Part shown: positions 13,700 to 57,021 of the stretch, piece by piece | Position numbering within the stretch: the stretch's first letter is position 1 | Layout of the letters: each line of letters opens with the position of its first letter | Source of the DNA: Branchiostoma floridae | Lineage: Eukaryota; Chordata; Leptocardii; Amphioxiformes; Branchiostomatidae | DNA length: 64,000 bases | Direction of reading: 5' to 3' | NCBI RefSeq assembly: GCF_000003815.2 | Contig: NC_049981.1 | Location: 14,411,729 to 14,475,728, forward strand | Program-made: the position numbers and the translations under genes | The notes under the pieces: model-generated | The model's input: the letters and a program-made list of their open reading frames with translations, nothing else | What the model was told of the DNA's origin: nothing | The model's database searches: none

Positions 13700-16600
13700 T
13701 TAGATCGTTTCCATGGGAACATTTTCATACTGTCTGTCACTGTCAGTATTGGCCTCTGGAGAGATATGGAAATTGATGTCACCGTTATTCCTTCACTTTT
13801 GACCAATGCTGGCCAACGTTACGTTTTTGTGAGATTTAATGACTTTTATCTAAATATAACAATCCGAACATGAAGATGGTTGCAGTGGAAAGTATCAAAA
13901 TTGTTTCTCCCTTCTTGTAAACAAAGTTTAGTTAATAACATTAAGCACCTTAATGCTAGAATGATAATACATTTGTAATATACAAATATGATATTGTATA
14001 CATTTTTAGAGTATAGTTCTACTCTGTCTTAGCATAGAAATGATAACTTAATGGCAGTAAAAATATCGACATTGGGTACCTTTTTCCTTGGCATTGTTCT
14101 TTGCTGTCCGGAAATGGAGGAACAGAAAGACTGCAGCGCCCCCTACCAGTAACCCTGCAATAAAACATCCAACTGCAGCTCCAGCTACAGCTCCGGAAAA
14201 ATTGGCTCCTGTAAAACAGATTCGTAAAAGTGAAAGTGAAATTAAAGTAAATTCAGCACAAAATCTGCCGCCGTTCCTTGTGCTAATTGGCTTGGGTTCT
14301 ATAAACAAACTAAAAAGTCACCACTCAAATCACTTCTGAACATAAAAAATAAATGAAATATAGAATCTATACATACCGATGGTCATCATCATCATTTTCA
14401 TCGATGATCACCATTCAAATTATAACGAACTACGTATATTGCAAATTGTTGATATTAGAGTTGTCACCTGTTTGTGGGGGCTTTGTGACTTCTGGACCTA
14501 CAAGAAAACAAAATACGTGACCCGAACCCATTTCGGGGTTTTACGGGACGTGCTTTGGCCATTCTCGACGTTTAGTGCGTTCCATATATGGCAAACAAAG
14601 CAATAACTCCCGCCCTGGGCGACAGGTGACAGGTGTCGGTCTGCTAATTAATTGAATTGTGCCGCCAGCCAATCAGCGAAGAGAAAGGAACACTTCGTCG
14701 GCAATGACACAACATCTGATTGTCATGTTTATATGTTGACGGAACCATTCATATTTGAGAGGATTTTGTAATTTATGTGACTCCATAAAAGGTTACTGCA
14801 AAGAAAATAGGAATATAATATGTGAGCATTATTTTGAAAACAGCAATTATAAATATACACAAAATATATATACGGAAAGAAACTTTTAGGTTTAAGATTT
14901 TTATGCAGACCTTCTTGAAGATTCCACCCCGGACTCGTCCATTTTTAATTTTACATTACGTCACAGACTCCCGCTAAGTGAAGGTTAAACTTTCTTGTCG
15001 CAGCAAATGCAACTGTGCGCCCAAGTCTGCAGTTTTCTGCGCATTTTACGTCAGCTTCTACCCAGTTTCGGTTGTCATCGGTAGCAGAACATCTTTAGGT
15101 AAGAAATGGCTATCCTTACATTGTTCACTCCGTTGTTAATGTACATTGAAAGGTGTTTTCGTTTGTGAAATTCGTCAAAACAACGTTATATGAGAACTGT
15201 GGAACGCTGGTACCGCAGGCAAGTGCTGACAAGCCACTGCCGTCGTTGTGTATCTCCGTTTGTTGTCAAAAACATGCATGAACTGATAACGTTAGTAGTC
15301 GAAATCAGTTTTCCTTGGGAAAGGGCTAAAGATACTTCCACACGAGATGTCATGGTGTTTTCTGCATCATTTCTGTTTTTTGACGGTAACTAGTTATCTT
15401 TATTTTGATCGTGACGACGTCCACGTACTAGTATTTTTCTGTGGGGAGGGGGGGGGGGTAAATATATTATGCTGCTTATTGTGTAACAGTGGGGTTTAAG
15501 CGCTGCCAAACTGACCACGCCAGTTAGTCTAGAGCTTTTGGTGTTGTGGTTTGCACGTTGGATTTGTAATCCGCCGACCCGGGGTCGATTCCCGGTAACG
15601 GCATGTTTGTTTCTTTCTGTTTTTTAATTTATAATTCTGTTAATATTAATATTAATTCATCCTTTGGACTGTGATTTGTGTAGATGTTATACCAAATGTC
15701 ACTCGTTTGACTTCTATATGATGGCTTTAGTTTCATTCATGTCAATCCTTTTTGATCCTGTCAGTTGTACCTTTTCATTTGCAAGTACAGCTTGTGTATA
15801 TGTATTTATTGTACCTCTGTTGCCATATTCCTTTATCATTCAAAAGCATTGTGCATTAACATTTTGAGGTGTCCACAAATGTGTAAAACAATGATTGACA
15901 TGTCTCTATGTTTGTTTTTTCAGCAGTAAGAAGATTGTGCTCATGACACACAGCAGGTAGGGCCTGTTGTCTTTTGTCGCTAGACTTGCATGTACATGTA
16001 GGTGTAGACTGTAGAGACAGGTGCAGCATTGGGATCGACGAGAAGATTATGTGTAACACAAACACATTGTTATCTTCTGACAACAATATGTATTCTTTCC
16101 AAATCAATGGTATAATTATTTCGTCAAATATTTGATTGATGTCTGCCTTGAAATGCCAAATCTCACTCTCCTGTTTGTATCATTCAGATGGAACCTCTAG
16201 AGAAGAAAACAATTGGTCCATGAGAAGCTGTACGTAGGAGGAGGCACACAGATCTTGTCCCAAGCAGCAACAGATTGATGGTAGATTGTAAGTAATTGTG
16301 GAAATGTGTACTGTTTCCAAATCTGTCTATAGTTTGATGTCTCTGCTTTGCATTGAAATTCTGACTTCCCTGTTTCTGTCCTCCATACCCCTCTACAGAA
16401 GAGAAGCAGAGCTTGGTCCATGACAAACTGTATGTGGAAGAAGCAGACAGACTTGATCCCAACCAGCCAGAAAAGGACACGCAGATATAGATCGCAACCG
16501 ATTCTGAAAAGATGTATAAAACATTATATTTTGACGGAATTGTAAATTTTCTGCGATTCTGCAGATTAACTTATAACAATGTAAAAACTTTATCTCAAAT

Positions 16601-19600
16601 TACATGTATTTACATTAAGACAATCAGGTTGTGAGAGCAGACTAGTGTAAAATTGCCATTTTGTGAAAGTAAAACTGTAAAGACTGAAAGTTTTTTTTCA
16701 TTCTTTTTGTTCTTGTCTGTGTGTATATGTATGCGCGTGTGTTTGTAAGAGAGAGATGAGATACTAGTTATCATTCTGAACTTCATCCCACTTGCTATCC
16801 AACATGCCATCACCATTTTTTTAATACAAGAAGACCAGAGACTTCATCGTTGTCAAGACGTGTATACCAAAATTGCAAAGGCCCTGGAGGTATATATCAC
16901 AGGCATTTCCATACAAAATTTTGTTCCAATACCATGGCAATACAGAGGGACCAAACATGATAATAAAAATGGTCATAAATTCATCCTCTTGAAGTGATAT
17001 ATGCCAAAAATGTTAAAGTTCTACCGTTCATATGTCGAGGGCACCCTTATAGCAAATTCCATGTTATTCTGTTGTAATACGAGACCACAGAAATCTCCAT
17101 TATGGAATGTTTGATTTTTTTTCCATATATGTGATTGTGGAATAGCATTGTTGCATGGGCAGAGGGGCGGAGTGAAAATGGTGCATTTGCTCATAAGTAG
17201 ATGTCGGCCTTGGTAGTAGTTCATTTCGAGAAGTTACTGTTAGAATGTTCTATTTTTGCGCAGGGGTGATTTGGAACAGTTCAATTTTGCATGGGAACGG
17301 GTATGGCTGAAATATGCTGTATTTGCTCTCAAGCAAATGTCGGCCTTTCTAGTTTAGTAATCGTTTTTATTATTTTTGTCGTATTGTACAGGTGGCTAAA
17401 TTCAATATGAAAAACGGTCGCACTTAACATTAGGCTCGCCCCTGAGGCGTCGCCAAAAAATCCAAAACGCTTATAAACGTAGTACATATACCAGTACAAG
17501 GTCAATCTCCTACAACGGACAGTGGTACCCTCGATCACATTTACCTCCGTAAACATGAACAAAACAATGTTCACCTTACTGTTGTTGACAAATATTACAG
17601 TGACCGTGATATGTGATTCCTTGCAGCTATTATAAAATTGGAACTCTGATACTTAAGGTAAGACATACTTTACACTACAAAGAAAAATAATACTTCCAAG
17701 CTACTTCAACTTTATACAAGATGTTTTACCAAACTTACCTTAAATCTATAGATATGTCTAAGTAAGCAAATCAATGTAACATACAATTTGCAACGAATTG
17801 TAACATATATATCTAACATAACATTTGTGTCGAATTGTAAAATTTATAAACTGTATATAATCAACACAAATCTATGTACAAAAAAAATAAAGTTTAGTTA
17901 ATTCCATCCTAAAAAGACCTCCATAATCCTTGTTTATTTGTGCTTTAGATCTATGTTTTAATGATAACTTGAGTCTTGCTAACCGCGCACTGCACTGACG
18001 TGCCTTTGAAAAACAAAACCAGTTTCAACCAGTTTCAAAATACTGTACTACTATCTTACTGCACCTTCCTTCCAAAATCAGTGTGATAACATGAACGAAT
18101 GAACATTATTTTGCGTCTTACCTGACTGCGTTAGAATCAGGGGGTAGGCTAGTAGAATAAGTAAGGAGGCGGACGGCGAGGGAGACATTTGCGCCATCGT
18201 AGGTAAGACAAGATGCACTAGGGTCAAAGGTAAACAAGCTACAAAACACCAGTTGCAGTAAAACCAGTCGAACCACAGGTAACCGTAGGGCACGTTATTC
18301 TCTAAACAATATGCGCCGGGTCATGGCTTGACCCAGGTCCATGGTTGTAAACAAATACCTACGGTGACAACTTCCCGCAACAACAAAAATCTAATAAACA
18401 AATTAAATTGTGCGATACCTTCTGGCTGAACCTTTGGTGTAGTGGGAGCGGAACCTGGGTCTGAAAAGGCAACACATGACGAAATCATTATTCAGCTTGT
18501 GATGCCAAATGAGCTCGAGGACAGTCGTAGAGGAACATGCTCAGAGTAAAGTAATAAAGCAAAATGGAAAACCTGAACTTACATTGGACTTGAACACTAA
18601 CACTGTTGGTCAGTGCTGCAGGATCGTCTCCAGGCAGCTGCGGAACCCCGTTGCCAGCTGTGCAGGTGTACTGGCCTGCTGCGGCTCTCTGGATGTTGGC
18701 GAGCGTCAGGGTTCCCGTGTTAGGGTCTTGTGCAGCATCGGCAGGGAGGTTGTCACCTGTCCAGGTGTACGTGGGGGCGGGGATGCCACCTGCCTGACAG
18801 GTGAGCACCACCTGGGTGGCACCTTCCTGAACTATCAGGCCAGGGGTGGCTGTGACTGTTGTGTCCTCTGGAGCAACTAAACGAGGGAAAAGATCAAAGG
18901 TACACAATCCAACCCCCTAAAAACCACCAAAGTTAGAGACATTGAAGAATCAATTCCAAAAACAATATCCGTTTCAACCAGAATCTATGTCATCAAATAG
19001 AACTTCCATGTACTTTCGTCAATTCCGGGGAACAAAACATACTGGGCTTACACTGGACAATCAAAGTTCTCTCTTTGCTATCTGAGGTGCCATCACTGAA
19101 GGTTGTAGAGAACTGGTACTGTCCTACATCATCCTTGGTGACACTCAAGAGTCTCAAGCTGGCCTCTCCAACAGGCTCTACCCTGCCCTAGAGGTAAGCA
19201 TGACCATAATATCATAACTTTAATGTTCTGTTCACATGAGGTTTTTTTTTAAACAATCATAACGTTACTTTCAACATGGTACAGATTCTACCAAAAGTGA
19301 AGATTCAGATTGACCACTGACCGTGCTGCAGTCTTCACGTGTTAGATGCAATTGTCTAAATTGAAAGTTATCCGCAGGAAGACTTACTCAACACCGCGGT
19401 ACCGTGTGCAACATACACATACCTTGTTACACATCGCTTTACTTTTTAGCGATACTTACCCTCCAAGCAGCAAAGATAGCGAACGATCCACCGTTGGACC
19501 TGCTGGCAATTCCACTTGATGGCATCTTCTTCCAGATTTCTAATAGCATGGTGGCACCGGGGGCGGTTGTATACCCGTACTCCAGTAAAGCATCATCGCC

Positions 19601-20957
19601 AAGGTTTGTTCTAGTGGTACCACCATCGGGAAGGGTGACCGCATTTTGAGCTGAAACTTGAAGACGAAGATCAGGTCAGCCGTACCTGTCTACATACCAT
19701 ACTTCTACTGACTTCCATGCTATCCCTGATATCTTGCTCAGTAAATCTCTACTAATTTGTATCATAAACGGCTTTGACAGCTAGGCAAAATGAACACTGC
19801 CAGCTGTGTGTTGTGCAACACACATTCAGTTGATTGAATGTGTCACAATCCTTCGATCCTTTTTCTACCTGTATCACTCAGATTTTATGAATGGATTATG
19901 TGAAAATTATTCAGTATGATCATTTTTGTCGTATTTTACAGGTGGTTGAATTCATTATAGAAAAACAAAAATCCAAAACGCTTATAAACCTTGTACATGT
20001 ACCAGTAGTCAGGTGCAGGTAGACATCAGAAATACTTGTCTTGTAATGTAATGTAATGTACAATTTCGATTCTCTCTGCACTGCAGTGCAGGTGTTTCGA
20101 GTGATCTGTTTTTGTACCCTTGCAGTATCTTTGCAAATTGGACAAGGAGATGGCGTAACGTTTTGAACATTGTATCAGTTTTTGAAAGTCTATAGACAAT
20201 ATTTCAAATTGCAGCATGATGATAAGTAACATAACACCAACTTATGCACTGTGCTTATCTGCGTTGAAAATGATACTACTAGCAGCAAATATGTCATTAA
20301 CAAAGTTGAATACCTGAAGTCAACGTTAACCTAACATTTCATACATTTTCATTAATTATAGAGGCTTCGCCGTACAGACCGTATGTGCAATTATTGAAAC
20401 CTGCTTACATATATAACTTTAACTTTTATATATGAACTTCAGTGCTTAGATGAACTTTCATGCTATATATATATAGTGCGTTTATGTACATGTACGTACA
20501 GTTGCAATCAGCCCTGGCGTCATGCGTCATGCTGGTACCCTTGTTGACATTTTGACCTGCTGGCAAACGCTCGCACCTCATTTTTATTTCCGGGTTCTAG
20601 TTTGTTTCACTATAGGCAAACTGTACGTACGTAGTGAACGCGGGATATAAATGTTCAGAAGAATTCGAAGGTTAACTGTCTCTGGACCCTGGCAAATCAA
20701 ACGTGTGTCAAACTGAATGGTGACCGTTATGTTAACGTTGTGGTCATGATTTTAAGAAAGTAGATTGCGATATAGTGGCATTTCCGTAATGCACAGTACC
20801 CTAAGTATGGAGAAATGTTAGGTGTTATATGATGGTTGATATACCTACGAAGGGAGATCCGACAGTCACACACGGCACACACATCGTAACGTAGTTACAA
20901 ATCCTTACCTTGTTGTAAAAATGCCAGTAAACTGGACAAAATCGCAGCGGTCCTCAT
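13700..20957 (-). CDS. IgR1: Ig-superfamily receptor with cysteine-less V domain and truncated tail
   Basis: Exons (minus): 20909-20957 signal peptide (MRTAAILSSLLAFLQQ); 19460-19650 and 19052-19187 V-like domain split by a phase-0 intron; 18583-18876 I/C2 domain (LTCQAGG, YTWTGD, GQYTCTAGNG); 18419-18460 linker PGSAPTTPKVQPE; 14468-14497 linker GPEVTKPPQT; 14080-14208 transmembrane (GAAVGCFIAGLLVGGAAVFL); 13700-13755 tail (RQYENVPMETI, stop). All other introns are phase 1 and the sum is 308 codons. The V domain lacks both core cysteines: LLEYGYT and GQYQFST stand where Cys is expected. A TAA replaces the CAA of paralogues, deleting the YQEL/IYQSL part. The 3.9-kb gap between the two linkers holds an orphan signal exon (18122-18197) and a 2.8-kb duplicated segment, so the 5' and 3' halves could belong to two broken genes. 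The exon calls are firm; joining them as one gene is less so. Confidence 0.68.
15505..15605 (+). other. tRNA-like module (B-box and anticodon-like arm), not a functional tRNA
   Basis: GGATTTGTAATCC can form an anticodon-like arm (loop would read TGT), followed by CCGGGGTCGATTCCCGG as a T-arm with B box and TAACGGCA as a 3' acceptor strand. The 5' half is stretched and mismatched (GCCAGTTAGTCTAGAGC), and the other copy (about 36795-36885) has lost part of the D-arm side. It is best read as tRNA-derived sequence inside a repeat. Confidence 0.5.
16187..16490 (+). pseudogene. Exon-like pair with C-terminal coding signal inside the duplicated segment
   Basis: After CCCTCTACAG at about 16397 an open stretch reads EEKQSLVHDKLYVEEADRL then DPNQPEKDTQI and a stop near 16489. 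About 200 bp upstream, after a TTGTATCATTCAG acceptor, a diverged relative encodes LVHEKLYVGGGTQILSQAAT but carries a one-base shift. Two related exon-like units suggest a fragment of an unknown host gene. I do not recognise the family. It is absent from the short copy at 35792-37196. Confidence 0.35.
17362..17500. repeat. Short direct repeat shared with 19918-20005
   Basis: TTTTTGTCGTATTGTACAGG with AAAATCCAAAACGCTTATAAAC is repeated at 19922-19990 as TTTTTGTCGTATTTTACAGG with the same AAAATCCAAAACGCTTATAAAC block; the first copy has about 45 bp extra in the middle. Both lie in IgR1 introns or flanks. Confidence 0.6.
17935..18197 (-). pseudogene. Orphan signal-peptide exon of an IgR2-like gene copy
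   Basis: Exon 18122-18197 encodes MAQMSPSPSASLLILLAYPL then ILTQS and ends phase 1 at a GTAAGAC donor, nearly the same as the IgR2 first exon (23833-23908) and the orphan at 33237-33312. The following intron matches IgR2 down to about 17935 (GACCGCGCACTGCACTGACG-type sequence), then the copy is lost: no V exon follows. Upstream 18198-18360 also matches the IgR2 promoter. It could still act as an alternative first exon for the IgR1 linker-TM-tail exons, since phases agree. Confidence 0.72.
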
Positions 20958-21516: not shown

Positions 21517-23908
21517 CTAATCCCTCTGCAGACTCTGATAAACTGCAGGCCTCAGCTCCTGGTACTGGGCGCTTGGCTGGGGTGGTTGGGATGGTTGGTG
21601 GAAGGTTGCCATGGTAACTTCATTTCCGGTTCCCGTGCCCGGCCTTACATCTTCATACTGTCCGTCGTCCAACATGTCGCCCTCTGTGAATCAAAATGTC
21701 ATTTATTTACGGTAAGAAAAAGTCCATTTATATAGTTTACACAAATCTATTGTCTGATTTGAAATTATTGTTCATTGGTCTGTATCCCTCCTCAGAGAGA
21801 CTTATACATGCACATGTGTACTGAACATAAACAGTGTCATTTTGTGTCCCTACTTCCAGACTGGCCTTGCTTAAGTTTACCGCATCCCAAGGGACTCGGT
21901 CTGCGCATGTGTACTGAACAGTGGTGGGGGATCACAGTCACATTTTGTCTACAAATATCCAGTCTGCACCTTCTCTGAATTTGAAGAATGACAATGACAT
22001 GTACAGTTTGATATGATTATATTTATTAAGTTTATAACATAGGTTTTGTGTACCTGTTGGGTTCATTTTGCGGTGCACGTGTGCTTTTCTGAAATGAAGA
22101 AGCATGAAGACTGCAGCGCCCCCTAGCAGCACCCCGGCAGTAAGGCAGCCCACAGCTGCTCCTGCTACTGCTGCGGATCCGAAGCAATCACCTGTTGGGA
22201 ACGATGCTCTTCTCAGGTCAATGAATAGAAGCAAGGAGAAGGACGATAAAAGAGAAAGATAGCAAGGATGCAAGATGTATGACATACCTTTGTGACATTC
22301 AATGCAGAATGTATGTCGGCGTTGAAAACGCGTTAACGTTCCGTCATACATTTCGTTATTATGATGAAACACAATGAATAGAAAAATGAATAAAGATCAT
22401 GCAGTGTTTAATGTTGGAATCACCGACATATTGGAAATCAAACAAGGTTGTTCCTCACCTCGCACACCCACTGGGACAGGGTTGTTTGGGGTGGTGTTAG
22501 TTGGAACTGAAGAAACAGAACACATCAGAGCTAAGTCATGGCTTTTGTCACTACAACGGAAATGACTGTTTTTGTTACATATACTAGTACATGGTTATAA
22601 GGTACTGTGTAAAGAAAAAATACAATGCGAAAGCAAACTTCACACATGAAATAATGATTACATTTACGTACGTACGCACTCTTCCCTGTCGTTACAAGTG
22701 TAGTGGTGGAGTCTAAATGAGGATCATAAAGAATCATTGATACACATGAGAGTCACCGTCGACCTGACAGTTAACAACTGATTCTTCCCTATCAACTGGG
22801 CCTGTTTTAGCATACTCGTGCTGTATTTCATATTCAATGGTCAACCTCCGGTCAAACATACGTAACATTCAATGTCTCTGAAGCCTTCATGTACTTACCC
22901 AACAAGTGCAGGTTGATAAAGGACGTTTTAATGTGCAGTGAAGCCGCCACCGTACATTTGTACTGTCTTTCATCTTCAGGTGTTACTCCGGTCAGTTTCA
23001 ACTTGACATCATCAACCAGCTCCACACGTCCATCATACTCAGCAGGCGGTGTTATCTGGTTGTCTGTAGTCCCCCCAGTCTTGATGTACAGGCCCAGGTT
23101 TACTGTACTGTCCTCCATTGTGACTGTCCAGGTCACAGCGAGTATGTTACCATCTGTAGTCTGGTTGTAATCACATGGCAAAATCACTACACCTCCAACC
23201 AGGCCCTTCTCATTGTATGTGATTTGTGCTGTAACTGCAATAACGGTACCACGGCGTCGCAAGTGAATCATAAAAAAACGGAAGCGATAATTTATAATTG
23301 TTGTCAATAAAGATATTGGGTTTATTAAAGAGAACTGTGGAATAATCTGTGTCAGATACCGCCATGACAGCACTGAATGAATCTTATTCCGTTTCTTGTT
23401 CAATCACTGGTTGAAACCGTACTGGATCACGACTGTGGCCATATTTTAGTTGTTATGTATGTCCAATCGAATCCTCTGGGCTTTAGTTGACTGACATTTC
23501 TGTCTTGTTCCACTAGACACTGACCGATGTATATCTTTTCAAGTTACTACATATACACATGTATATAGTAAATTTGTTTGTACAGACGTATTGGTGACAG
23601 AACTGGAGCAAGTAGTTCCTTTCATTATATGACTACCCTTTTCTCAACCTACAGTGTTGTAGCCTGTGCTTTAGATTCATGTTTTAATTACTTATTTTGT
23701 CTTGCTGACCGCGCACTGCACTGACGTGCCTTTGAAAAACGAAACCAGTTTCAACATACTACAATCTTACTGCACCTTCCTTCCAAAATCAGTGTGATAA
23801 CATGAACGAATGAACATTATTTTGCGTCTTACCTGACTGCGTTAGAATCAGAGGGTAGGCTAGTAGAAAAAAGAAGAACGCGCACGGCGAGGGAGACATT
23901 TGCGCCAT
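21517..23908 (-). CDS. IgR2: single-V-domain transmembrane receptor with tyrosine tail
   Basis: Exons (minus), all phase 1: 23833-23908 signal peptide (MAQMSPSPCAFFFFLLAYPL); 22899-23234 V-set domain (VVILPCDYNQT, VTWTVTMED, PEDERQYKCTVA: Cys, Trp and D-x-x-x-Y-x-C present); 22459-22506 linker VPTNTTPNNPVPVGVR; 22054-22191 transmembrane exon (AVAGAAVGCLTAGVLLGGAA then VFMLLHF and basic residues); 21517-21683 tail, TAG stop. Total 254 aa. Tail motifs are QYEDV and the compact double motif YQELRPAVYQSLQRD; the middle YEVP site of the paralogues is lost (NEVTMATF). It is the simplest member, a one-domain receptor with a complete exon set. Role inferred: cell-surface recognition with SH2-dependent signalling. 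The ligand is unknown. The nearest relatives are IgR3 and IgR4. Confidence 0.85.
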
Positions 23909-24629: not shown

Positions 24630-27600
24630 TCAAATATCAATTGTGTTTTTATGTCGCATTTCTACGTTATGACGGAGGTGGGCGGGGCTATGAAATCGGT
24701 CCATTCGGGGTTTCTGCAGACTCTGGTAGATGGCAGGCCTCGGCTCCTGGTAGTCACCAGTAGGCTGGGGTGGTTGGGATGATGTTTGGATCGTTTCCAT
24801 GGGAACTTCGTAGTCGTCACTTCCGTTTCCGGGTCGCTGTGACGCCGCTCTTGACATGCTTGATGGTACCACATTTTCATACTGTTTTTCAGCGCCGACG
24901 TCTGAGAAGAGGTGAACATTTATCTTATGTTTATAACTGTTTTAAGAAGCGAGAAGAAGTTGAACTTGTGCATACTTGAATGTATTAGCATATGTAGAGA
25001 TGATAAGATACCTTTTTGTCAAAATTGTACCTTATCACTAGCGCTACGACCTGTACTTAGCTTGTTTGAGCACAAATGTACAATTAAGGTCATTCATTCA
25101 TTCGTTGATATCACTGCATATGGTATTCTGTCACTTTTACCAATGGCTGTCGTTACCTGTTTGTATGATCTCATCATCATCACTTTTATGATAAGTTACT
25201 AGTCATCTGAACCTGAAGATGGTTTCAGCGGAAAGGGCCATTTTCCCTTCTTGCGACGAGGATCATATTAAGGTAGTAACATTACTAGCGCATCAATGCT
25301 AAAAGTAATATCATACTTTTAATCTAACAATATGATTATTAATCATACCGTAAATATCTTAGATTATAGTGTACCTTGGTTTTAGTGTAGAAATTATCAT
25401 CGTAAGTAGTACAAAGAAAATGGCTATATTAGATACCTTTTTTCTTGCCACCATTCTTTTCTGTCCTGTAACGTAGAAACAGGAACACTGCAGCGCCCCC
25501 TACTAGTAACCCGCCGATAAAACATCCAACTGCAGCTCCAGCCAAGACTCTGGGTCCGGCACAACTTGCCTCTGTAGAATAGTTATTTATAAAAGTGAAA
25601 GTGAAAAAAACGATTCAGAACAAGTTTCGAGATGGGCTGCTAAATGGCTTGATTTCTATCGACACTGTAAAGGCGCAGCTCAAATCGCTTCCTAGCATAC
25701 CAAAAACAAAGCAGATACATGTATAAGATATATAACTATGCAGGGTCATCATCATCATCATCCTTGTATCAATGGATGCTCGCCAGTCTGGCTATCGCCA
25801 GTCATTTCTAACAAATTATAACAAACTGCATAATTATATTACTGCACTAAGAACATTCAATAGCAAGTTCAGAGATTGACAGATTAGTCTTTTACTGTTA
25901 GAATTGTCATTAAGGGGTGTCACCTGTTTGTGGGGTTTTTGAGACGTCAGGACCTACAACAAAACAAAACAAAATACGCGTAGATAGGGTAAGTAAATAC
26001 ACTGTACACAACATTAACATTAACTTCGGAAAATGAGATTATGTGAGTTAAGATATTACCTAAATTTGAGACAGCTAAAAGAAACCAACTATAGACCAGA
26101 GAGGACTAAAAGAAAGCTACAACGAACTGACAGAAAACTGCAACAGACGTGTTTAGTAGTGGTAAGAGTAAGAGTTAGAAGGAGGTTATGTTAGAAAGAG
26201 TGAGATGAGAACATTTTGCCCTGCCTCACCTGGTGAGTTGGATGGAGTGTGGGAAGAGGTGACAACTGAGGACAAACGAACAGAAACATATCATATGTAA
26301 TGAACAGAAAATAGTCTAAAATGAAAAATGATGGTGGAATAACAAACATCTTTGAAGGGATGGCATTAATAATTTTAATCAATTTTATTTCTAACTGCCT
26401 CTCTAACGATCAGGAAAGAAATGAGTTATTTGAAGAGGCATGCAAATTCCACAAAAATTTCCAAACGCTTACCGACGAAAACAAAACTATAACGCTGTTA
26501 ACGTCACATAACCCACGCATCATAGAAAAAGTGGGACACTTCGTCTTCCACTGCTTCCAGAAAAGAAGTCAAACCCTAAATACGTAGATTGTAGCTCTCA
26601 GCAGTTCATACCATTGATAGAATAGTCACTCGTTTACACTTGTCACCATTGTTATCTATACCAAAGTATTTCATTTTATACATGTTTATTATATTTTCTG
26701 TATGTTTCATGTTGCAATTAGCCCTCGGGCAAGAACTTGCAAATAAAGTTCCAATAATATGGAAAAACACAAGATCGTTTCGAACACAACCACATCTAAA
26801 CAAATCAAGAAGTACAATACCTCCTGTTTGCCCCTTTGGTGTAGTAGGGATGAAATAGTCTACACATGTAACATAAGGCTCCGTTATTGCTTAGCTTGTG
26901 ACGTCAGATGAAAACTGACATAAACAATGAGGCAGCTACAACTACAGTACTACTACGGTAAAGCCGAAGTCTGTTTGGAAAGAAGTGTAAAAGAGAGAAA
27001 GTTGTATGAACGGTGTAATACGTCAAGTGTAACATTACATCATATGTCTTTTGATAAACTGCCTATATATCGCATAGATACTCAAGCGTGTTGAAGCGAA
27101 GGTGTAAAAGTCAATGTTGTGATGACTATGTCTGATACATGTATAATACACCAACCATACGTGTCTACGTTATAAGCAATGCCCTTCTAATTACACGATG
27201 GATTAGTGACCTATATATGAATGTGCAAAATGTACTTATACTTGTAGCGTTATCAGGCACAATTAACACATCAACTAAATTGTAGTAGCACTAGCGTCCC
27301 AAGACTTAGTGTTAAGAATGTCTTTGTGCGGTTTATTTGAAACTTCACACCTAATTAAGAAAGTGGAGTACCTGGTTCTGTAGTGAAGCTTGTTACAGCT
27401 GATGTCCTGGATTGGGTAGGATCTGGCCCTGAAGCAGTACAATATACTATATACGTCACTCCGTAATTACCTCCATGAAGATGGATGTATTGTTGCTATA
27501 TCGTTTTCAGTCTGGACCTTATGTGGGGGGTATTTCAAGAACCGTTGAAAGGTTTGCAATGGCTTCTGGTGGGTGGATAGGGATGGGGATAATGATGGTG

Positions 27601-43250: not shown

Positions 43251-44468
43251 CCGCATATTTGTGGTCATCATAACTTGAGAACCTCTTGATGGACCACGAT
43301 GATATTTGGTATGTGGGTAGGGGTTGGGAAGATGAAGGTCAAGGTCAATTTGGGGCCCCCTGGTGTGTGACCTTGGTACTGCAGCGAAACTTCCGGTTTC
43401 GCTATCTCGGTGTTCTGAACATGCTATGGTCAAGATTTTTGAGTATTAGATAGCTCTTGTGCTCAGGAAAAAATGACATAAGTTTGGGCCCCCTAGCGTC
43501 TAGTTTTGGGATAGCAAGGGCATTTTTGTCAAAAACTTCTGACGAGGATAGCTCAAGAAGGGAACAACGGATTTTCATGATTTTTGGTATGTAGGTACCT
43601 TAGACAATGTTGTACAAAATAAAATACCAATTATGCAAAATAGGAGTACCTTTGCATAATTAATGAGAATATTCTATCATAGCAGTTTTTTTCAATATAT
43701 CTCTTGTCCCGTACGTCATATGGTCGTGACATTTGGGTTGTAGATAGCTTTTAGCGTCATGACAAAGTGGGGCAAGTTTCAGTCCCCTAACATTCAATTG
43801 TGGAACTGCAGGGGCGTTTTTGTCAAGACACTCCAAAGAGGATAACTGCAGAAAGGAACGGCGGATTGCCTGCATTTTACGTATGCAGGTAGCTTAGGCA
43901 AAGATGTTCCTAATGATATGCATTTTATGCAAATAAGTACTTAATTTGCATAATTAATGAGGAAATTGTATAATTCCATTGTTTGCAATAACTGGACTTC
44001 GATAAATGTAACACTTGTTAATTATAATCGGTGGTACATCTATAGATATCAAATATGCAAATGAGGAACTTTTTTGCATAATTTATGCAAAAATGGCAAA
44101 ACAACTTAATGATTAATGATTTGAATTGGGAATTTTACTGGTGACATGTGCACTGTACATTATTCAATGATGAACAACACCATGCATAAATCATGTTAAT
44201 GTTAAGTCATTTGCATGAAATTAACAAAAGCTCTAAATATTCATGGGGGTATGAGGTCGCCGAACTCTAGTTGTAACAGTACTGTCTAGTTCCTCTATTT
44301 ACGCTCGTTTAGATGAATATGAGTTGCTACGTCTACTGATTAAAGGAAGAAATGACAAATAGTATCAAGAAACTACAATCCTGAAGGAACTTGAAACTTG
44401 ACCTTACCTGTTATTACTTGGGTAAAGAAGAACGCGTACAAACAAAGCATGCTCAGCGAAATGTTCAT
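37253..44468 (-). CDS. IgR4: V plus shortened C2 receptor with full tyrosine tail
   Basis: Exons (minus), all phase 1: 44408-44468 signal (MNISLSMLCLYAFFFTQVIT); 42690-43022 V-set (VILPCDYDQT, VTWTMRIGG, DEDEYRCIV); 41972-42271 C2 domain (VTFTCTSTGG, YRVQCTASG); linkers 41500-41538 (DPSAIPTTPKGQT) and 38843-38872 (DPGVSKAPQT); 38039-38173 transmembrane (GVALGCMAVAGVAAYFFVV then KRRKR); 37253-37449 tail. 364 aa if the defective linker at 41271-41309 is skipped. Tail motifs: HYENV, DEYDYEVP, DDYQELRPAIYQSLQKH. The C2 exon lacks 13 residues before strand B that IgR3 has (39 nt, in frame). The transmembrane exon is unlike the other copies and strongly basic after the membrane, as if swapped or much diverged. 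V differences from IgR3 fall mainly in the loops between strands. The gene is interrupted by element copy D (43171-44272). Confidence 0.86.
38209..38272. repeat. Near-perfect intronic hairpin, about 30-bp arms
   Basis: The left arm CCTCTGATAAACATTACATT then TAAGACCTATT is followed after one base by AATAGGTCTTAAATGTAATG then TCTATCAGAGG. One mismatch in about 31 pairs. It lies in the IgR4 intron between linker 38843-38872 and the transmembrane exon, 36 bases upstream of the acceptor. Confidence 0.85.
40540..41130. repeat. Tandem repeat, about 150 bp unit, four copies
   Basis: TCAAGTTCAA followed by (G/A)C, then AGGCCCAAAATC, recurs at 40542, 40689, 40841 and 40993 (periods 147, 152, 152 bp). 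Each unit continues with ACCAAA(A)AT, a TTC(C/A)GGA-type stretch and ATACAGCGC. On the minus strand the units read GATTTTTGGTACGTG, like the modules of the hairpin element family. It lies in an IgR4 intron. Confidence 0.75.
41271..41309 (-). pseudogene. Dead linker-2 exon of IgR4 (acceptor AG changed to TG)
   Basis: The 39-nt stretch encodes VDTSSPNTASKSP and keeps its GTGAAGG donor, matching the IgR3 linker at 26230-26265. The two bases before it read TG (TTCTCTG) where IgR3 has AG (CCTCAG). Splicing should skip it. Being phase 1-1, skipping keeps the frame. Confidence 0.75.
43171..44272 (+). mobile_element. Hairpin/microsatellite dispersed element, copy D (in IgR4 signal-V intron)
   Basis: It starts with the perfect hairpin TACCTCCATG...CATGGAGGTA-type stem (43171-43195). 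A GTGT microsatellite follows, then GATATTTGGTATGTGGGTAG, GGGGCCCCCTGGTGTG and CTGCAG blocks and octamer-containing modules. It ends CATGGGGGTATGAGGTCGCC then GAACTCTAG. The hairpin TACCTCCATG pairs with CATGGGGGTA at the far end with one mismatch. The same intron in IgR3 (31763-32124) lacks it while the flanking sequence matches, a second empty site. Confidence 0.86.
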
Positions 44469-45375: not shown

Positions 45376-45589
45376 GCTAACTCTGTACGCAGCATTTTAT
45401 TCTACTTTCACCTGTCGCACATGGTAAATGTGAAACATGTAGAATAACGATGTTTTGTCTGAAAATAATGAAAATGCAACATGTATTGCATTTATCTTTT
45501 GTTGAACATTTATTTTTGATAATTTACAAGGTCAGCAGTCCTGCTCTCTCCAGTTTTCTCTCTTCTCGAACATTGTGTACGTACATCAA

Positions 45590-46190: not shown

Positions 46191-46515
46191 AAAGTTAGAT
46201 GACGTCACTTAAAACTTCCGAAGTTTACCGATTACGGTCTATATCTACCTTTAACTTCGTACAAGTTCGTACAAGTTCGTACACACTAACTTCGTACAAT
46301 TACCCCTTTTCTGGACATACCTCACGGCCTAAATCAATGTGTTTACAGATTCATAAACTGTTTTAACCTTTGCCCTCGACAGGTAAGTCAATTAGCTACA
46401 ATCGCTCTCATGCGTTGTTAAAATCAGTGCGTTGTTAGGGATAGTAGTGGGCGAGAATTCTTACTGCTGCCTCGTTGAAAGGAGGCGGCCGTAAGAATTT
46501 CCACGCCGACTGAAA

Positions 46516-47706: not shown

Positions 47707-50700
47707 TCAGTGTTTCTGCAGACTCTGGTAGATGGCAGGCCTCAGCTCCTGGTAGTCACCACTAGGCTGGGGTGGTTGGGCCGTTTCCATGGGAACTTCG
47801 TACTCATCATTTCTGTTTCCGGGTCCCTGTGACACTGCCCTTGAAAGTGCTACGTTTTCATACTGTCTATCAGCGGTGTCCGTCGCTCCTGAAAAGACGT
47901 CGAAATCAATGCCGTCTACTTGTATTCAGATCATTCATATTGCATACTAGTATTCAACTGCCATATGCATTGTAAGTTTTACACTGGTACTTGTCAGAAT
48001 CATTCATGTTGAGGTTATTGATTCGCACGGCAGGGTGTACCGTGAGGATACGAAAATCTAGCCTGGGTACCAGCCTACGTAGTAACCAATTGATAACCAC
48101 GGAAAATTGAGCCAACGGTTACTACAAAGGATGTCACCCAGGCTACTGAAAATTAATACCATTATTTGACGTTACATGCTTGTCAGACTATGTATTTATC
48201 AACAAGTGACTACTTATTTGAATCTGAAGAAAGTTGCACTACGCGGAAAGGGTCAAAAATTATTTTTCTTTTTTCTTTCATGTATCATATTCAATATTTC
48301 AGAACATAATATTCTTCATTTTTGGGTATTGTACTTAAATATTTTGGAGCAGATGTGATAAATGTTCGAAGCTATGGATGCAAAAAAGATTCAATACTTT
48401 TTTTCTTGCCGCCATTCTTGGCTGTCCTGAGACGTAGAAACAGGAACACTGCAGCGCCCCCTGCCAATAGCCCTGCGATAAAACATCCAACTGCAGCCCC
48501 AGCTACGACTTCGGGCCCAAAATAATTTCCGTCTGCAAAACAAACCCTACATGTAGTTTGCCCATGGGAAAATGTCTATTCGTTGGCTTTGATACTCGAA
48601 GTTTGTGGAAGAAAAACAAATCAATAAAACTTTGAGTACAATGCAGTAATTATATTTTGAACGTCATTTCAGTTTACACCGAACAGCACAAACGAAGAAT
48701 CTCGCAACAAGAGGATGGTTAGCATGAAATATAGTGCAATATAGGAAAGATCGAAGGGTCAAGAAATGGGCCGTTACATGTACAGTTAAAAAGTCAGTAA
48801 AGGTAATCACCTGTTTGCGGGGCGTTTGTGCCAATACTAAGACCTGCAAGAAAACAAAATAAGTAGATACAGTAAGTAAATATAATGTACACAATAATTG
48901 AAAATGAAAGTAAAAAAAGATCACAGACAAATTAAAAGAAAGGGGGACAGTGTAAGTACATTACTTGCACAAGAAAAGAACTACAACGGACAACGGTACC
49001 TCCTGTTCGTCCCTGTGAAGTGGGAGTGGTGGCTGGCTCTAGAAATAATACAAGATGGCTCCATTATCACGCTGTATAAGCTGAACGTAAAGGAAACCAT
49101 GGTATTACCAGTAAGCAATAAGAGTTAAAGTGATGAAGCAGGCATTAATCAAAACTACCTTTAAAACACGGTGTTTAAAAGTAGGAAGAAGACTAGCTAG
49201 GACGACAGTTTATAATTCGTAACTTAGATACTTCTTGCCAATAACAGTAATTGATCAAAAGAAGGCTGGACAAAAGGTCAAGCAAGAAAATGTTTGCTTA
49301 AGCAATGAAATTTCTAACGATTCTAAAATATAGACGCTCAAAAGCAAATTCATTAAATAAAACAATAACATGGTTTGGTGATTGGGGTGTCAATTCCTCG
49401 AACTGAGTCTTGCCAATACCTATTTTTGTTTTCCCGAAACAAATAATGTTTTTGAAAATGTGGCATAGAAAACTTTGTCAAAATGTCAAAGCTACAAGTT
49501 TTGCGTCGGGCGTGGCGTAACTGGTAGAGCTTTCGGCTCGGAATCTATGGGTCCTGAGTTCGATTCCCACCGTGTCCCCGACGTTGTGCCATTGGGAAAG
49601 GCACTTTACACGACTTTCCTTCTGTCTGTACCGTGTATGTGGCATTGTTAATATAAGTTACAAAAACTTGAGTGCAGTGCCACATCGTCCTCGTCTGTCC
49701 AAAAAAGCAAATAGAAAAAAAAAGTATTGGTAGTCAATAGGGAACGGGTTTTCTGCGCGTGAAAAGTTTGCGCGTGCGCGTGAACAATTTGCGTGTGACA
49801 AAACAAAGTTCTGAAAACATGCTCGCGTTTGGAATTCCGGAAAACATGCTCGCGGAGGCTGGCAGTCAGATAAGGCCAGCAATCAGCGACCCAGTACGAA
49901 AAGAAATGGCCAGCAAAAGTGTATTATGAGCCAAAAAAGGGCCTCAGAGAGCCTGCTATGGAGGCTATGAATTTCTGGGTTGAAAAGTTCCTGATTGTAG
50001 GTCCCTTGGGAATAGATAAATTTGCATATCATAAACATTTCAAAATCACTGAAATTTGTCAGAAATACAAGTAAACCATACTAGTATAAGGTTTGTTATT
50101 GTAAATTATAACATCTATTTTAGCTTTATTCAACCTTTTCTCAAGCAGATCGTTTAACGCGCAAATTTCAAACTTTTTTTGCGCGTGAAAACTTGACGTA
50201 ATGTAAATGTCAAAATCACTTTAAAATCATTAGAACACAGAACACAGAAAGAGTTTGTTAACTCTAGAGTGCAAAGGTATTATACTAAAAGCCTATTTTG
50301 TGCCATATCATCTGTTTTAAGATCTTAAGTGTAAAACTTAAGTGTAAAGTTTTCAAATCCCTTGGGAATCAGCATATTGTCACGCGCAGATTTTTCACGC
50401 GCAAATTTCTCACGCGCACAAAACCCCATTCCTAGTCATGATCATTAGCATAAGGCAAAGTTAACGTCATAAATGTCATATCAATACAGGTAGCCTTTAA
50501 AGTTTGGAATCAAATGAGCCCTTGAAAACCGGAAGGCTCGTTCGGCTAAAACGTTTTTACTGACTACACCCCCCAATATTGCTGCATACTCTGTTGGGTG
50601 CTTTATCATTTAACGTTACCTTCATTGACAGTCAACAGTACAGTAGCAGTGCGGCTGTCATACGCATGGTACGCTGTGCACTGGTACGTGCCAGAATCAT

Positions 50701-53700
50701 CCTTATTGAGGTTGCTGATATGCAGGGTGGCTCCTGTTGCTGTGAAACTGCTGTCCCCTTGTTTTGTCCAATTGAAGCTGACGGCAGGTTTGCTGTCTGC
50801 TGCACATGTGAACTGAATACTGCCTCCTATGTATTCTGTGGCAGGTCCGTCAGGCTGTATACTTGCAGAATTCATGTCTGGAAAAATGGTATGCAGGCTT
50901 TTTTACTTTGTACACAGAACAAAGTAGGCAGAATCAAACTGAGCATTTATCTCATGAACTGTCAATGAAATCAATGTATAACTACACTCCACGGTACGCT
51001 TATGACCATGTACAGTGTCCAGACAGTTTTGTGTCCTTAGATTCACGTATTTGTTTTCGCAGTGGACACCTGTCTGGGGGCTTTATTTATACAATAAGTA
51101 CTTACAGTATGTTAGCAGCGTATGAACAATTTGTCCCCCAGATGATGACCCATCACACAGGTACCTCCCGTCATCAATAGCCCGTGTGTTTGTGATGGTT
51201 GCTGTGAAGTCATCATCAGCTGTAGCCGTGAATCTGCCTCTCAGGTTGAAGGTATCCAGACCCGCTTTCTCCTGAAGATCAGGCGTGCTGCCTCCTGTGT
51301 ACAGGGTGATCAACTGTACCCAAGTATCACCCGTATCAAGCCGCTGCCACTCTCTAAAGACGTTGGTTATTCCTGTACACGGCAGGGTTGCGGATCGTCC
51401 CATCTGTACTGTGATGTTAGCGCCTCCAACTGTTGAGCATGAGGTAAACAATTATATACAACAATCATATACAACAACAAGAGATATATCTTAAAGACAA
51501 GACAGAAGGAAGCAGGTGCACCTGATTCTATTCTATGTGGCTATTAACAGCGTGGTACGGCAATATCTACAAATGGATCCTTAAGTAGGAATATTAACAC
51601 AACAAGACGTCATATATCCCTAACGCTTTTCCACTGACTCATGCAGAACATATACAGAACAAGCGTTCGCAGAACTCAACCTTCGTGAAATGGGTGATGG
51701 TGCGGTGGTGGAGGGTTTATATGTAGACGTGTCATTGGCTAGCTTTAGTTCTGTGTCGTCCACAGAGCGTCACTTGTAAGTGGAAGTGAGAAGGCGAGGT
51801 GTTGAGAGGATGTTGTTGGTTTTAAATATGAAACTGTGAGGTGCATGTCAGGATGAGCGTTTTCTACGTCAGACCGACATTATTGGAGACTTTTGTATGT
51901 CATTAAGAATCTAAAAGGCAAGTTACTTGGAATCTTGGCAGTAGGTGGTCAATGTTATCTGTGAAATGCATTGAGAAGTTGTAGAATATAATGCGAAGAC
52001 AAAGGGTTTGTGGTTTTTACTATGGAATGGAATGTATGTGTACGTTATGGCCTGCTACAAACTGTGTAAAATGAAACCGTGTCTCTACGATTTACGGGAG
52101 ATGAAGAAGGCCTGCTTACGCTTTTTGGGAGAAAGCATGGAGACCGTCACCTAGGAAGGTGCGCCGAAAAAAGTGATATAGGCAGTAGCTGTATTTTAAA
52201 AGTATTCTATCATCCATCCTTTCTTGTTTGTGCACATGACACAAACTGTCCTGTCCATTCATTTCCATGGACAAAGCAAATACCTTTCATTGTCTTTTGA
52301 AGATAAAGACTTATATTGACTGGGCTAAAATCGACTGTTGCATCAAAATATCAATAAAATAACACATAAAACAATAACGTTGACCACATCAAAGCCGTCA
52401 TTGGTGAGATCCACATAAATGATCTTCACATCCCCAGCGAACACCTCCAAAATGTGATGGCTGGTGTCGTCACGGAATGCTCCTCCTCAGGTACATAAAA
52501 GTATAACTTCCATTTTGGGCTTGCGACTTGGAACTCATGGAACTTTTCAGATGACCCCTTTTCTCTTACCCAATCGTTTTAGTAACCTATCAGTACAAAT
52601 GGCATGGATCTGCTAACTAGCACCTGCGACCTACCCTAGATTAAATTGCAGAGAAATCAAGACATCAAAGTATAACTATCCATCTGGGCTTGCGACTTGT
52701 GACTCATGGAACTTTCGACATGACCCCGTGCGTGTCTCTCACCTAATCGTTCTCGCGACATGTCGGTACAAATGACGTGATTGTGTTAATTACCACTTGT
52801 GTCCTTGTTGTGACCTATATACTCTACATTACATCGCTTGGAAAACAAGACATAAAAGTATAACTTCCATTTTGGGCTTGCGACTTGGAACTCATTGAAA
52901 TTCTGACATGACCCCGTGTCTCTTGCCCAAACGTTCTCGCCACATATCAGTACAAATGGCCGTGCCGTGGCGGGAACGCTTTATCCGCCCGCACGGGGCT
53001 TGTCAGTCAATAGGACTATACGCCTCGCGACACCTTTTCTGTCCGGGATAACATAAAACATGCATAATTTCTTCCTTGGAAGAGAGACCAAATGCTTATC
53101 CCGACAAGAAATTTGTCCAATTTCAGCAGGTAGGATAACAAATCCACCGCCGGAAGCAAATGTATCAATGGTTGCAACAATGATGATGTCGTAACATTCT
53201 TTGTTTCACAATGCAGTCCACTACATTGTGTATCCCATATGTCTAATGTAAACTCCCTATAAACAATCTCATCAATGACTGCAAGTTACTGTGAAAAACA
53301 AACCCTGCTTTGTTCATCAGTGTATTGTACCGGTAGTAACTGTTACATGTGCAACCCTTTTAAAACGTGTAATACACGCCCCTGTATACAATATCATCAT
53401 TGCCCTTAGTCTACAGATTATCAAATCTTATGGGGAACATGCACACCCCATCATGTATAATGTACTGTCCCTATAAACCATTTTCTCTATTGCGCAACTA
53501 TGACCTTTGGGATCACTTCCTGTTGGGACGGGGTAAGCATGAAGCCCATCGGCATGACGTAATATCACCTAAATATAGCACGATTGCGTAATACCCACGA
53601 TTGCGTAATATCTACGATTGCGTAAAACCCATTTTCCACCTACAAACATCCCCTGCAAAACCGTCAAAAGCCACTAAACGAAAAAATGCCTCGTACGTTT

Positions 53701-55392: not shown

Positions 55393-57021
55393 ATGATGCT
55401 CACCAATTTTATAGAAGCGCTGGTAGTATGCAGCATCTTTCTTCACACGGGTGAGAGTTGATTCCTCTTAATTTATGACATGTTAGAATTCAATTGCCAG
55501 TGCGTCGTTGACTGTTGATATTTGTTGGCGAATAACAGGTGTTCTTGTTATTTCTATGGAGAGTTCGGCTAGGTCTAGCTACCCTACGTTACTATTAACG
55601 TCAATTCCGTTTGCAACAAGAACCGTACACTTTGGCAGGGCATATCACTCTGTCATTCATCATAAAGCAAAATTGAAGTCCAAAATGATAGGAGTCCAAA
55701 ATGACTGCTTTCATTTTCGTTGTAATGATTAATAAACTCCGAACCTGAAAGACTGAATATAAGTATATGCGGCACTTGATTTCAAAGAAGCTTTGATAAA
55801 TTTGTGTGTGTACATGTTTATATGTATGTGTACAACTATATCCCTCCAACAGAGGGAGCGCTCATTGCAGTAGAGATGGGACGAGCCGCAACCCTGCCGT
55901 GTACAGGAATAACCAACGTCTTTAGAGAGTGGCAGCGGTTTGATGCGGATGGTACTGCGGTGCAGTTGATCACCCTGTACACAGGAGGCAGCACGCCTGA
56001 TCTTCAGGAGAAAGCGGGTCTGAATACCTTCAACCTGAGAGGCAGATTCACGGCTACAGCTGATGATGACTTCACAGCAACCATCACAAACACACGGGCT
56101 ATTGATGATGGGAGGTACCAGTGTGACGGGTCATCATCTGGGGGATCTGTTACTCATGAACTACTCACATACAGTAAGTACAGTACATAGATAAAGTTAC
56201 ATCTTATCAAGCATCATCTAATGTAGGTCCGTGATTCTGTTTTTTGCATCACCATTATGATTTTACATGGTGTAAAAACATGAACTCTTGAGAAATCTGC
56301 TCTCTTTCTCACTTCTAGTGACAATCTTTTCTCACTTTGAATGGTCGGACGACGGTTGGAGAATATCTATAGACATCTTATTTCAAATAGTTCGGGTCAA
56401 AATATGAATATTTTTTAATTCCAGATATACCATTATCTGTGACCCAGCTTGTTTACCTAAACATGTGAAATTTCAGCTGTCCCAGTAATCACAGGAGTTG
56501 CCCCATCTGACACTGTAACCCAAGCAGTGGACAGCTCGGTCACTTTACGTTGTGACGTTACCAGTAAACCTACCGCCAACGTGACCTGGTCCCATAACGG
56601 CACCTTAAAGAACGAGACAGGTTCAGTCCTCGTACTCAGTAACATTGACTACGATGACAGCGGAGACTACGTGTGCACAGCTGTCAACGGTTATGGCACT
56701 GAAGCAACAAGAACTATTCAGATTACTGTTCAGCCGAATGCCGCGACAGGTATGCATATGGACGTTATTCTGAAACAACTTCAATTTCCAGGACTTTTCA
56801 AAATGTGAAGTAAAAAATCGTCCTATTTGGAACCTACACTGAATACAAAAGTGCTGATATTCTAAAACGCATATCATATTTCACCTACAGGTACCGGTGG
56901 TCTGGGGACTGGAGCTATCGTTGGTATCGTCCTCGGAGTGATTGCTGTTGTTGTCATCATCGTTGTTCTTCTCGTGTATTTCCTTATCATCAAGAAATCT
57001 AGGATGGCATGTTGTTATTAA
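55393..57021 (+). CDS. IgR6: two-Ig-domain receptor with very short cytoplasmic tail
   Basis: Exons, all phase 1: 55393-55450 signal (MMLTNFIEALVVCSIFLHT); 55853-56173 V-type domain (ATLPCTGITNVFREWQRF, FTATITNTRAIDDGRYQCDG); 56477-56749 I-set domain (VTLRCDVTSKPTANVTW, DSGDYVCTAVNGYG); 56891-57021 transmembrane and tail (GAIVGIVLGVIAVVVIIVVL then LVYFLII, then KKSRMACCY and TAA). 260 aa. No charged residue lies inside the membrane segment and there is no signalling motif. The tail has two juxtamembrane lysines and a CC pair that could be acylated (inference). The V domain differs from IgR5 at roughly 16 of 107 positions, mostly its N terminus, residues after EWQR and the last strand, whereas domain 2 is unrelated in detail. 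It could be a decoy, an adhesion partner, or the non-signalling half of a receptor pair. Confidence 0.9.

Follow-up and report, generated by a model that had tools for sequence, protein, structure and literature searches.

The gene cluster in the window

We analysed a 64 kb stretch of the amphioxus (Branchiostoma floridae) genome, here called the window (contig C3:14411729-14475728), which a sequence-only reading had described as a cluster of six immunoglobulin (Ig) receptor genes, five on the minus strand (A to E) and one on the plus strand (F), built from the same exon types and ending in a common tyrosine-bearing tail. The genome that we searched comprised 513 Mb in 431 contigs. The idea of an Ig family defined by this tail found no support, as the same tail exon was found elsewhere beside Sushi and EGF, FN3, discoidin and C-type-lectin exons.

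To find exons we scored splice sites with general consensus weights, in a simple scan that looked for exons of phase 1 at both ends (1-1) only. In the window V, I, C2, linker and transmembrane (TM) exons were recovered as such units, and the 16 internal exons modelled in B, C, D and E all have a length divisible by 3 and phase 1 at both ends. The claim that almost all introns are in phase 1 stands for these 16 exons, but the scan is blind to other phases, and in B to E it proves that 1-1 exons exist, not that others are absent. The Pfam check that had been proposed for the Ig exons gave V-set matches above the cut-off of 26 bits in B and C, C2-set_2 in C and D, V-set with I-set/Ig_3 in E and F, and I-set/Ig_3 in A, the V-set of gene D falling slightly below the cut-off (24.6 bits). 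The tail open reading frames (ORFs) are all on the minus strand, at 21520-21690 (B), 24633-24941 (C), 37256-37525 (D) and 47710-47925 (E), and that of unit A is split by a stop into two pieces, 13703-13792 and 13622-13699.

Gene E (minus) runs from a V-set exon (51106..51429; 5.4e-17 when V and I were scanned jointly) through an I-set exon (50620..50877; splice scan and Pfam), a linker exon of 33 bases (48811..48843; splice scores 10.1 and 4.8) and a TM exon (48398..48532, donor without score), which is 86% identical in nucleotides to the TM exon of C over 120 bases, to a tail exon (47710..47888, acceptor 5.2 at 47888) with YENV, YEVP and YQELRPAIYQSL in its ORF. The splice scan found no signal exon for gene E. 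A decayed I-set-like exon lies at 47957-48103 (minus), between the E TM and tail exons.

In gene D (minus) a candidate signal exon (44408..44468, donor 7.4) is followed by a V exon with weak splice scores (42690..43022), a C2-set_2 exon (41972..42271; splice scan and Pfam), a linker (38843..38872; splice scan), a TM exon (38039..38173) of a second type, common to a gene on contig C6 and to neighbour gene G, and a tail exon (37256..37449, acceptor 6.2) in which the four tyrosine sites are all present. An AlphaFold2 model of the D V domain, made from four sequences, had a mean predicted local distance difference test score (pLDDT) of 47.5. Tandem repeats with units of ~78 and ~60 bases fill 44900-46264.

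Gene C (minus) has a candidate signal exon at 33237..33312 (an alternative being 32125-32191), a V-set exon (31436..31762; Pfam, weak splice scores), a C2-set_2 exon (29802..30143; splice scan and Pfam), and, from the splice scan, two linkers (26230..26265 and 25924..25953) and a TM exon (25437..25571). Its tail exon, up to the core, spans 24711..24901 with YENV, YEVP and YQEP..YQSL, the frame continuing to 24633. Inside the gene, 27376-27468 (minus) resembles the end of a C2 exon (71% over 31 amino acids). Gene B (minus) comprises a candidate signal exon (23833..23908, donor 7.2), a V-set exon (22899..23234; Pfam), a linker (22459..22506; splice scan), a TM exon (22054..22191, bounds approximate) and a tail exon (21520..21683).

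Unit A (minus) is doubtful as one gene and may be two broken units, because an orphan signal exon (18122..18197), resembling in type those of B and C, lies between its Ig exons and its TM and tail exons. On one side stand the tail exon (13622..13755), a TM exon with a weak donor (14080..14208) and a linker (14468..14497; splice scan); on the other, an I-set/Ig_3 exon whose assignment to A is doubtful (18583..18876; splice scan and Pfam) and, ahead of the A Ig exons, a candidate signal exon (20909..20957, donor 7.3). A tentative V is split between a first half within an ORF (19442..19675, donor 6.2 at 19460, no Pfam match at 0.05) and a second half without cysteines (19053..19187, Pfam I-set only 0.036), and no convincing relative was found for this possible cysteine-less V. 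Stretches of 14526-17354, in the unit A region, are 97-99% identical to 35792-37196 beside the D tail, one of them stopping at the N gap 36540-36639; this near-identity may reflect a recent insertion, a duplication or an assembly effect.

Gene F (plus) has a candidate signal exon (55393..55450; splice scan), a V-set exon (55853..56173) that is 94% identical in nucleotides to the E V over 290 bases, an I-set exon (56461..56749, start approximate) and a TM exon (56891..57021). This last exon runs into a stop after KKSRMACCY, leaving a short tail without the tyrosine cassette, so that F is not a plus-strand gene with the common tail. Nor were six complete genes confirmed, since E is without a detected signal exon and the orphan signal exon may divide A into two units. 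As for the five tails said to keep YxN, YxxP and YQELRPAIYQSL, D and E carry all three, but A, B and C deviate: tail A has an in-frame TAA (13700-13702) between YENVPMETI and PSSQPPQPSHDYQELRPAIYQSLQKH, with YENV before and YQELRPAIYQSL after the stop and no YEVP or other YxxP; tail B, with YEDV, lacks any YxxP and closes with YQELRPAVYQSL; in tail C, which reads YQEPRPAIYQSL, YQEL is replaced by YQEP.

The tail is spread over seven contigs

The consensus of the tail is Yx(N/D)V .. YxxP .. YQEL(R/Q)P(A/S/T)(I/V)YQSL. Against the genome the D tail had 37 candidates, all 37 of which were scored and gave 37 matches with E<=10. A composite tail query gave 44 matches from 45 candidates, and 29 of these matches, spread over seven contigs, reach E<=1e-4; the reversed D tail gave 0 matches and no candidate. 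Twelve of the 29 are on contig C192, five at C3 14.4 Mb, five at C3 4.4-4.8 Mb, two each on C11 and C7, and one each on contigs C2, C6 and C18. Counting by the tail exon, which had been suggested for other Branchiostoma genomes, gives in this genome these 29 places, which are not restricted to Ig genes. It is the tail that is the widespread part, and the description of a species-specific, expanding family was not confirmed for the Ig exons, with D-type V at 6 places and E-type V at 3 (this genome, E<=0.001).

We scanned 31 tail loci (L009-L038 and L048) for the core YxxL-x4-YxxL with a pattern that permitted a tyrosine distance of 7 to 9, and found it in 30, the two tyrosines being 8 residues apart in all 30. 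Upstream of the core in the same ORF, Yx[ND]x occurs in 24/30 and strict YxxP in 23/30, and a TM-like ORF precedes the tail at 26/30 loci of the D-tail search (the L026 candidate was not counted).

Several loci stand out. At L035 (C7:16.845 Mb) five consecutive YQELQPSVYQSL-like units lie in one tail ORF, one of them with C for the second Y, and the core itself is amplified there. L036 and L037 (C7:21.50 and 21.52 Mb) have YETI-x8-YQEL, an ITAM-spaced pair (immunoreceptor tyrosine-based activation motif) that overlaps the core. Similar tails number twelve on contig C192 (376 kb) and five at C3:4.38-4.83 Mb, and C192 may be another haplotype of this C3 region. Large clusters of V-set matches lie on contigs C9 and C14 (at least 120 genome matches; the best 150 of 694 candidates were scored), and with the composite tail query the shared tail had no match on C9 and one only on C14, at E 0.53.

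Unrelated ectodomain exons beside the tail

Outside the window, ectodomain DNA was studied at ten tail places (L039-L045 and L048-L050), where heads were paired with tails from order, strand, distance and phase. The Ig, Sushi, EGF, FN3, lectin and TM exons were recovered as 1-1 exons, TM not at every locus. On C192 (L039) the DNA upstream of the tail holds, on the same strand, one EGF exon and 11 exons of Sushi-like type with phase 1-1, and a Pfam test of two Sushi repeats and the EGF exon gave Sushi at 2.7e-14 and EGF at 3.5e-10. The EGF exon (7784-7897) ends ~300 bases ahead of the TM exon and the tail follows within ~0.7 kb on the same strand; no Ig exon was seen upstream of this tail. L039 represents 17 tails of its type (C192 and C3:4.4-4.8 Mb), read at 1/17, and a TM ORF of its type lies ahead of 12/16 tails examined on C192 and C3:4.4-4.8 Mb.

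Other heads were found elsewhere. On C11 (L041, one of two) there are 13 FN3-like 1-1 exons, some partial (fn3 5.7e-11, two repeats tested), and on C7 (L040 and L048) F5/8C exons (F5_F8_type_C 1.1e-15 and 3.7e-16), which at L040 lie ~3 kb before the TM exon; a third C7 locus (L045) gave sub-threshold DSL (0.003) and Sushi (0.007) matches only. At C3:7.59 Mb (L049) two lectin exons, one of which was tested, and FN3 precede a tail match that contains TAA, and the lectin class reached Lectin_C at 7.7e-22 in Pfam. On C164 a lectin and two EGF exons are followed by a TM exon. The tail on contig C2 has V-set and Ig_2 exons and that on contig C6 V-set and C2-set_2, V-set reaching 1.6e-8 among ectodomain exons outside the window, and at C18 the one Sushi match (0.002) is sub-threshold and an Ig-like fragment has no Pfam match. 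Just upstream of the contig C6 Ig gene, at L044:1-3100 (C6:24.476 Mb), we noted by eye an element with reverse-transcriptase-like and recombinase-like ORFs.

These loci bear on the explanation that there is an Ig-only family resembling the amphioxus protein VCP, the Sushi, FN3, discoidin and lectin exons belonging to neighbouring genes. The ectodomain exons found in the window and at the contig C2 and contig C6 loci are indeed Ig, and VCP, of the Ig superfamily (IgSF), is reported with AIYQSD in PMC8211107. We nevertheless regard this explanation as quite improbable, given the tight spacing of EGF, TM and tail on one strand at L039, with its 11 Sushi-like exons and no Ig exon seen upstream, and the L039-type TM ORFs ahead of 12 of the 16 tails.

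Homology of the cassette was compared in nucleotides between head classes, with four Sushi loci, and only pairs of differing classes were reported. Among the Ig, Sushi and C18 classes tail exons match, with identities such as 73% over 156 bases (E 1e-18) and 74% over 167 bases. TM exons do so too, with 86% over 65 bases (Sushi and C18) and 76% over 75 bases (contig C2 Ig and C18). At the protein level, two Ig tails and one Sushi tail gave z scores of 5.3-24 against other classes, with one Sushi-lectin pair at 3.9, and the FN3, discoidin and C3 lectin classes are linked to these three tails with z of 7.2-16. Transposon carriage of the cassette appears unlikely, the introns being unmatched between classes save for repeat-like stretches of 50-149 bases.

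Mosaic Ig genes

The exons of the Ig genes differ in their nearest relatives. Genes C and D are 84% identical in V and 92% in C2, and the D TM has no nucleotide match with the C TM; it is 90% identical to the TM of the contig C6 gene and of gene G, these three being the close copies of the D-type TM in the genome (a fourth match has E 0.15), and the C TM is nearest to those of E (86%) and A (84%). The contig C6 gene combines a V nearest to B (80%) with a C/D-like C2 (92-94%) and a D-type TM and tail (87%), and in gene G a D-type TM stands beside V and I exons that are E-like (97% and 82%). Between C and D the synonymous divergence (dS) is 0.37 in V, 0.16 in C2 and 0.20 in the tail. The genes of the Ig group are thus mosaics, and since exon relatives and dS differ, whole-gene duplication alone is insufficient and exon exchange or gene conversion fits. 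That entire receptor genes were simply duplicated in tandem, without shuffling, as the five similar and like-oriented units inside 38 kb would suggest, is for this reason very improbable, the more so with C and D differing in TM type and with the tail lying beside unrelated domains. The proposal of cassette-built Ig receptors with a common tyrosine tail is supported, with these exon-level mosaics as evidence.

Gene G itself (L051, C3:14493001-14498000, plus) is a seventh gene, 18 kb to the right of the window, and has linkers; the shared tail has no match near it. About 26 kb to the right of the window, 4 kb downstream of the G TM and on the same strand, an exon at L052:3741-3953 (C3:14501741-14501953, plus), whose one genome match is itself, carries VMYAEL, which we take to be a canonical ITIM (immunoreceptor tyrosine-based inhibitory motif), and TEYAQI and TEYASI, presumably like the switch motif ITSM. 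It may be the tail of G. Its best acceptor is of phase 0 as against phase 1 at the end of the G TM, and a possible 26-base 1-0 exon between them may be due to chance.

Constraint and motifs in the tail

Selection on the core was estimated from L009-L037 (29 loci, L038 lying outside the sample), 22 of which met the pattern (misses: L015, L021, L026, L027, L032, L033 and L034); with the five-repeat L035 excluded, 21 tails remained, two of them identical in protein. The values that follow are sums over all pairs of tails, and the pairs are not independent. The core chosen in this way had a synonymous proportion of differences (pS) of 0.51, a nonsynonymous one (pN) of 0.04 and a ratio of nonsynonymous to synonymous divergence (dN/dS) of 0.049, against 0.42 in the remaining tail. 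Constraint accordingly lies in the motifs and not in the linkers between them. For V exons dN/dS was 0.28 (C/D), 0.34 (B/D), 0.38 (B and the contig C6 gene) and 0.72 (E/F), a range (0.28-0.72) that led us to reject diversifying selection over whole V exons, and for the C2 exon of C and the contig C6 gene it was 1.05, with few changes.

An ITAM has the form YxxL/I-x6-8-YxxL/I and an ITIM the form I/V/L/S-x-Y-x-x-L/V/I. The core is not an ITAM, with four residues between its YxxL units in 30/30; an ITAM-spaced pair anywhere in the ORF occurs in 2/30 (L036 and L037, both on C7) and in none in the window. Most copies are not strict ITIMs either, position -2 holding S in 2/30 at the first Y and 3/30 at the second, A in 25/30 at the second, and I, V or L in none.

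One could nonetheless think of an inhibitory family of ITIM type, as suggested for the amphioxus receptors BbLcLRR and VCP, which would recruit SH2 phosphatases and damp signalling. AIYQS is present in 5/30 cores (one of them behind the tail A stop). We see this as a tentative possibility, with residue -2 outside I/V/L/S in 28/30 at the first Y and 27/30 at the second, and with YENV and YxxP sites that, by SH2 motif preference, would suit adaptor docking better. Speaking for such a family, PMC8211107, which defines the ITIM as I/V/LxYxxL/V, calls AIYQSD of VCP ITIM-like and reports that a leucine-rich-repeat (LRR) receptor phosphorylated by BbLck associates with SHIP1.

A mainly endocytic tail would need no phosphorylation, YQEL and YQSL then being YxxL sorting signals for clathrin adaptors. 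Two YxxL-type signals in 29/30 cores (C has YQEP, and L035 was counted by its last unit) agree with this under the general rules for sorting signals. Such a tail would however leave unexplained why Yx(N/D)V (24/30) and YxxP (23/30) are conserved and why the spacing of 8 residues is constant, and we consider it unlikely.

A proposed signalling cassette shared by several receptor classes

Our favoured reading, to which we give a probability of about 70%, is that throughout its genome amphioxus encodes probable type I receptors which share a phase-1 TM and tail cassette, a multi-tyrosine platform for SH2 docking that was shuffled onto unrelated ectodomains. The window then probably holds one Ig-bearing branch of this tail-sharing set. 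The odds seem even for a further-reaching proposal, a modular immunoreceptor system of amphioxus's own in which one homologous tail with the compact two-tyrosine motif YxxL-x4-YxxL, unlike ITAM or ITIM, was phase-1-shuffled onto at least five unrelated heads (Ig, Sushi/EGF, FN3, discoidin and C-type lectin), whose ligands converge on one pathway, the resemblance of the tails being due to descent and not to repeated evolution of motifs.

Under the favoured reading, symmetric phase-1 introns would allow the cassette to be joined to any phase-1 ectodomain, and duplication, together with exon exchange or gene conversion, would then have made the window cluster more diverse. Clustering driven by ligand could lead a Src-family kinase to phosphorylate the tail, whereupon YENV or YEDV would dock Grb2-type SH2 proteins, YxxP those of Crk/Nck type, and the close YxxL-x4-YxxL pair one or two further SH2 proteins; unphosphorylated, the YxxL sites may have a second use as sorting or uptake signals. 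Different heads would in this manner feed one signalling or uptake output, the sign of which (activating, inhibitory or phagocytic) is not readable from sequence. According to PMC8211107, BbLck phosphorylates an amphioxus LRR receptor in Jurkat T cells, and SHIP1 associates with it, SHP1/2 less.

Several points weigh against the favoured reading. Each link of a head to a tail is predicted from the order, strand, distance and phase of the exons, and delivery of the proteins to the surface is a prediction as well. A number of splice scores are weak, and the putative SH2 partners are assigned from motif preferences. The Sushi/EGF ectodomain is known from 1/17 tails, and ten tail places overall were covered outside the window. 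TM homology is established for the Ig, Sushi and C18 classes only, not for FN3, discoidin and lectin, and the lectin-EGF tail of C164 is weak (z of 2.2 and -0.1 against two C7 tails), its ORF being cut at the sequence end. Stops occur in tail A and in the matches C192:366866, C192:162813, C3:7597821 and C3:3431702, and in the contig C6 match with the D-tail query, not with the composite query. Finally, the low dN/dS of the core is partly ascertained, the cores having been chosen by a pattern that requires them, and over the whole tail dN/dS is 0.81 (C/D), 0.68 (D/E) and 0.69 (D and the contig C6 gene), with few synonymous sites.

High-rate exon shuffling in lancelets is disputed: PMC10199209 describes an active exon-shuffling process, and PMC4967905 proposes that lancelet domain novelty is perhaps explained by gene-prediction errors. 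The tail exon, and in three classes the TM and tail pair, is seen here in raw DNA, independent of gene models. If the favoured reading is true, several receptor families have come to use a single signalling module through exon shuffling, and one assayable tail with a fixed spacing of its core tyrosines would serve several receptor classes of a basal chordate.

Comparison with known systems

Vertebrate ITAM/ITIM paired receptors are clustered Ig receptors with long- and short-tail versions. E and F are similar in being long-tail and short-tail versions of one V within a cluster, but the F TM is without a charged residue (by eye) and the core is neither an ITAM nor, mostly, an ITIM. With vertebrate B7 and nectin proteins the likeness lies in the ectodomain, D V+C2 being nearest in PDB to CD276 (9.6e-16) and PVR (9.7e-7) with C2-set_2 in Pfam, and the difference in the tail (by eye). 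E V+I is nearest in PDB to contactin-, DCC- and DSCAM-like chains, and the E V alone, among the best 60 of 161 matches, to Robo2 and T-cell receptor alpha chains, all weak.

Among amphioxus systems, the V domain with a J-like segment and then C2 that defines IgVJ-C2 resembles the V plus C2-type ectodomains found here. The amphioxus structure is reportedly that of Chen et al. 2018 (PDB 5xpw). E V+I matches 5xpw at 2e-11, but 5xpw is absent among the best 60 of 161 matches of the E V alone; with this weak relation, and no J-like FGxG at the ends of the window V exons (by eye), membership was rejected. VCBP genes, as portrayed in PMC2632668, are likewise clustered V-type immune genes, and a chitin-binding domain belongs to their definition. 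Their two tandem V domains set them apart from the genes described here, each model of which has a single V exon ahead of C2, I or a linker, in an architecture that combines this V with C2 or I and adds a TM and a tail, so that VCBP membership was rejected too.

VCP is said to have been described in 2005 in the Journal of Immunology. A literature search with the letters of the tail turned up one amphioxus paper, PMC8211107, and in that paper VCP is an IgSF protein with the ITIM-like AIYQSD; it is also treated in PMC4731796 and PMC3308329. The family had been called possibly undescribed, and this stands to the extent that no tail common to several ectodomain classes appeared among the literature matches listed, most subscription journals lying outside the scope. 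VCP differs in that a tail on non-Ig receptors was not reported for it among those matches, and its likeness is known from description alone: it has V and C domains, and its AIYQSD, as reported in PMC8211107, compares with AIYQSL in tails A (behind the stop), C, D, E and that of the contig C6 gene. V+C2 or V+I together with AIYQS is present in C, D and E, and by its reported motif VCP is the nearest published relative that we have seen.

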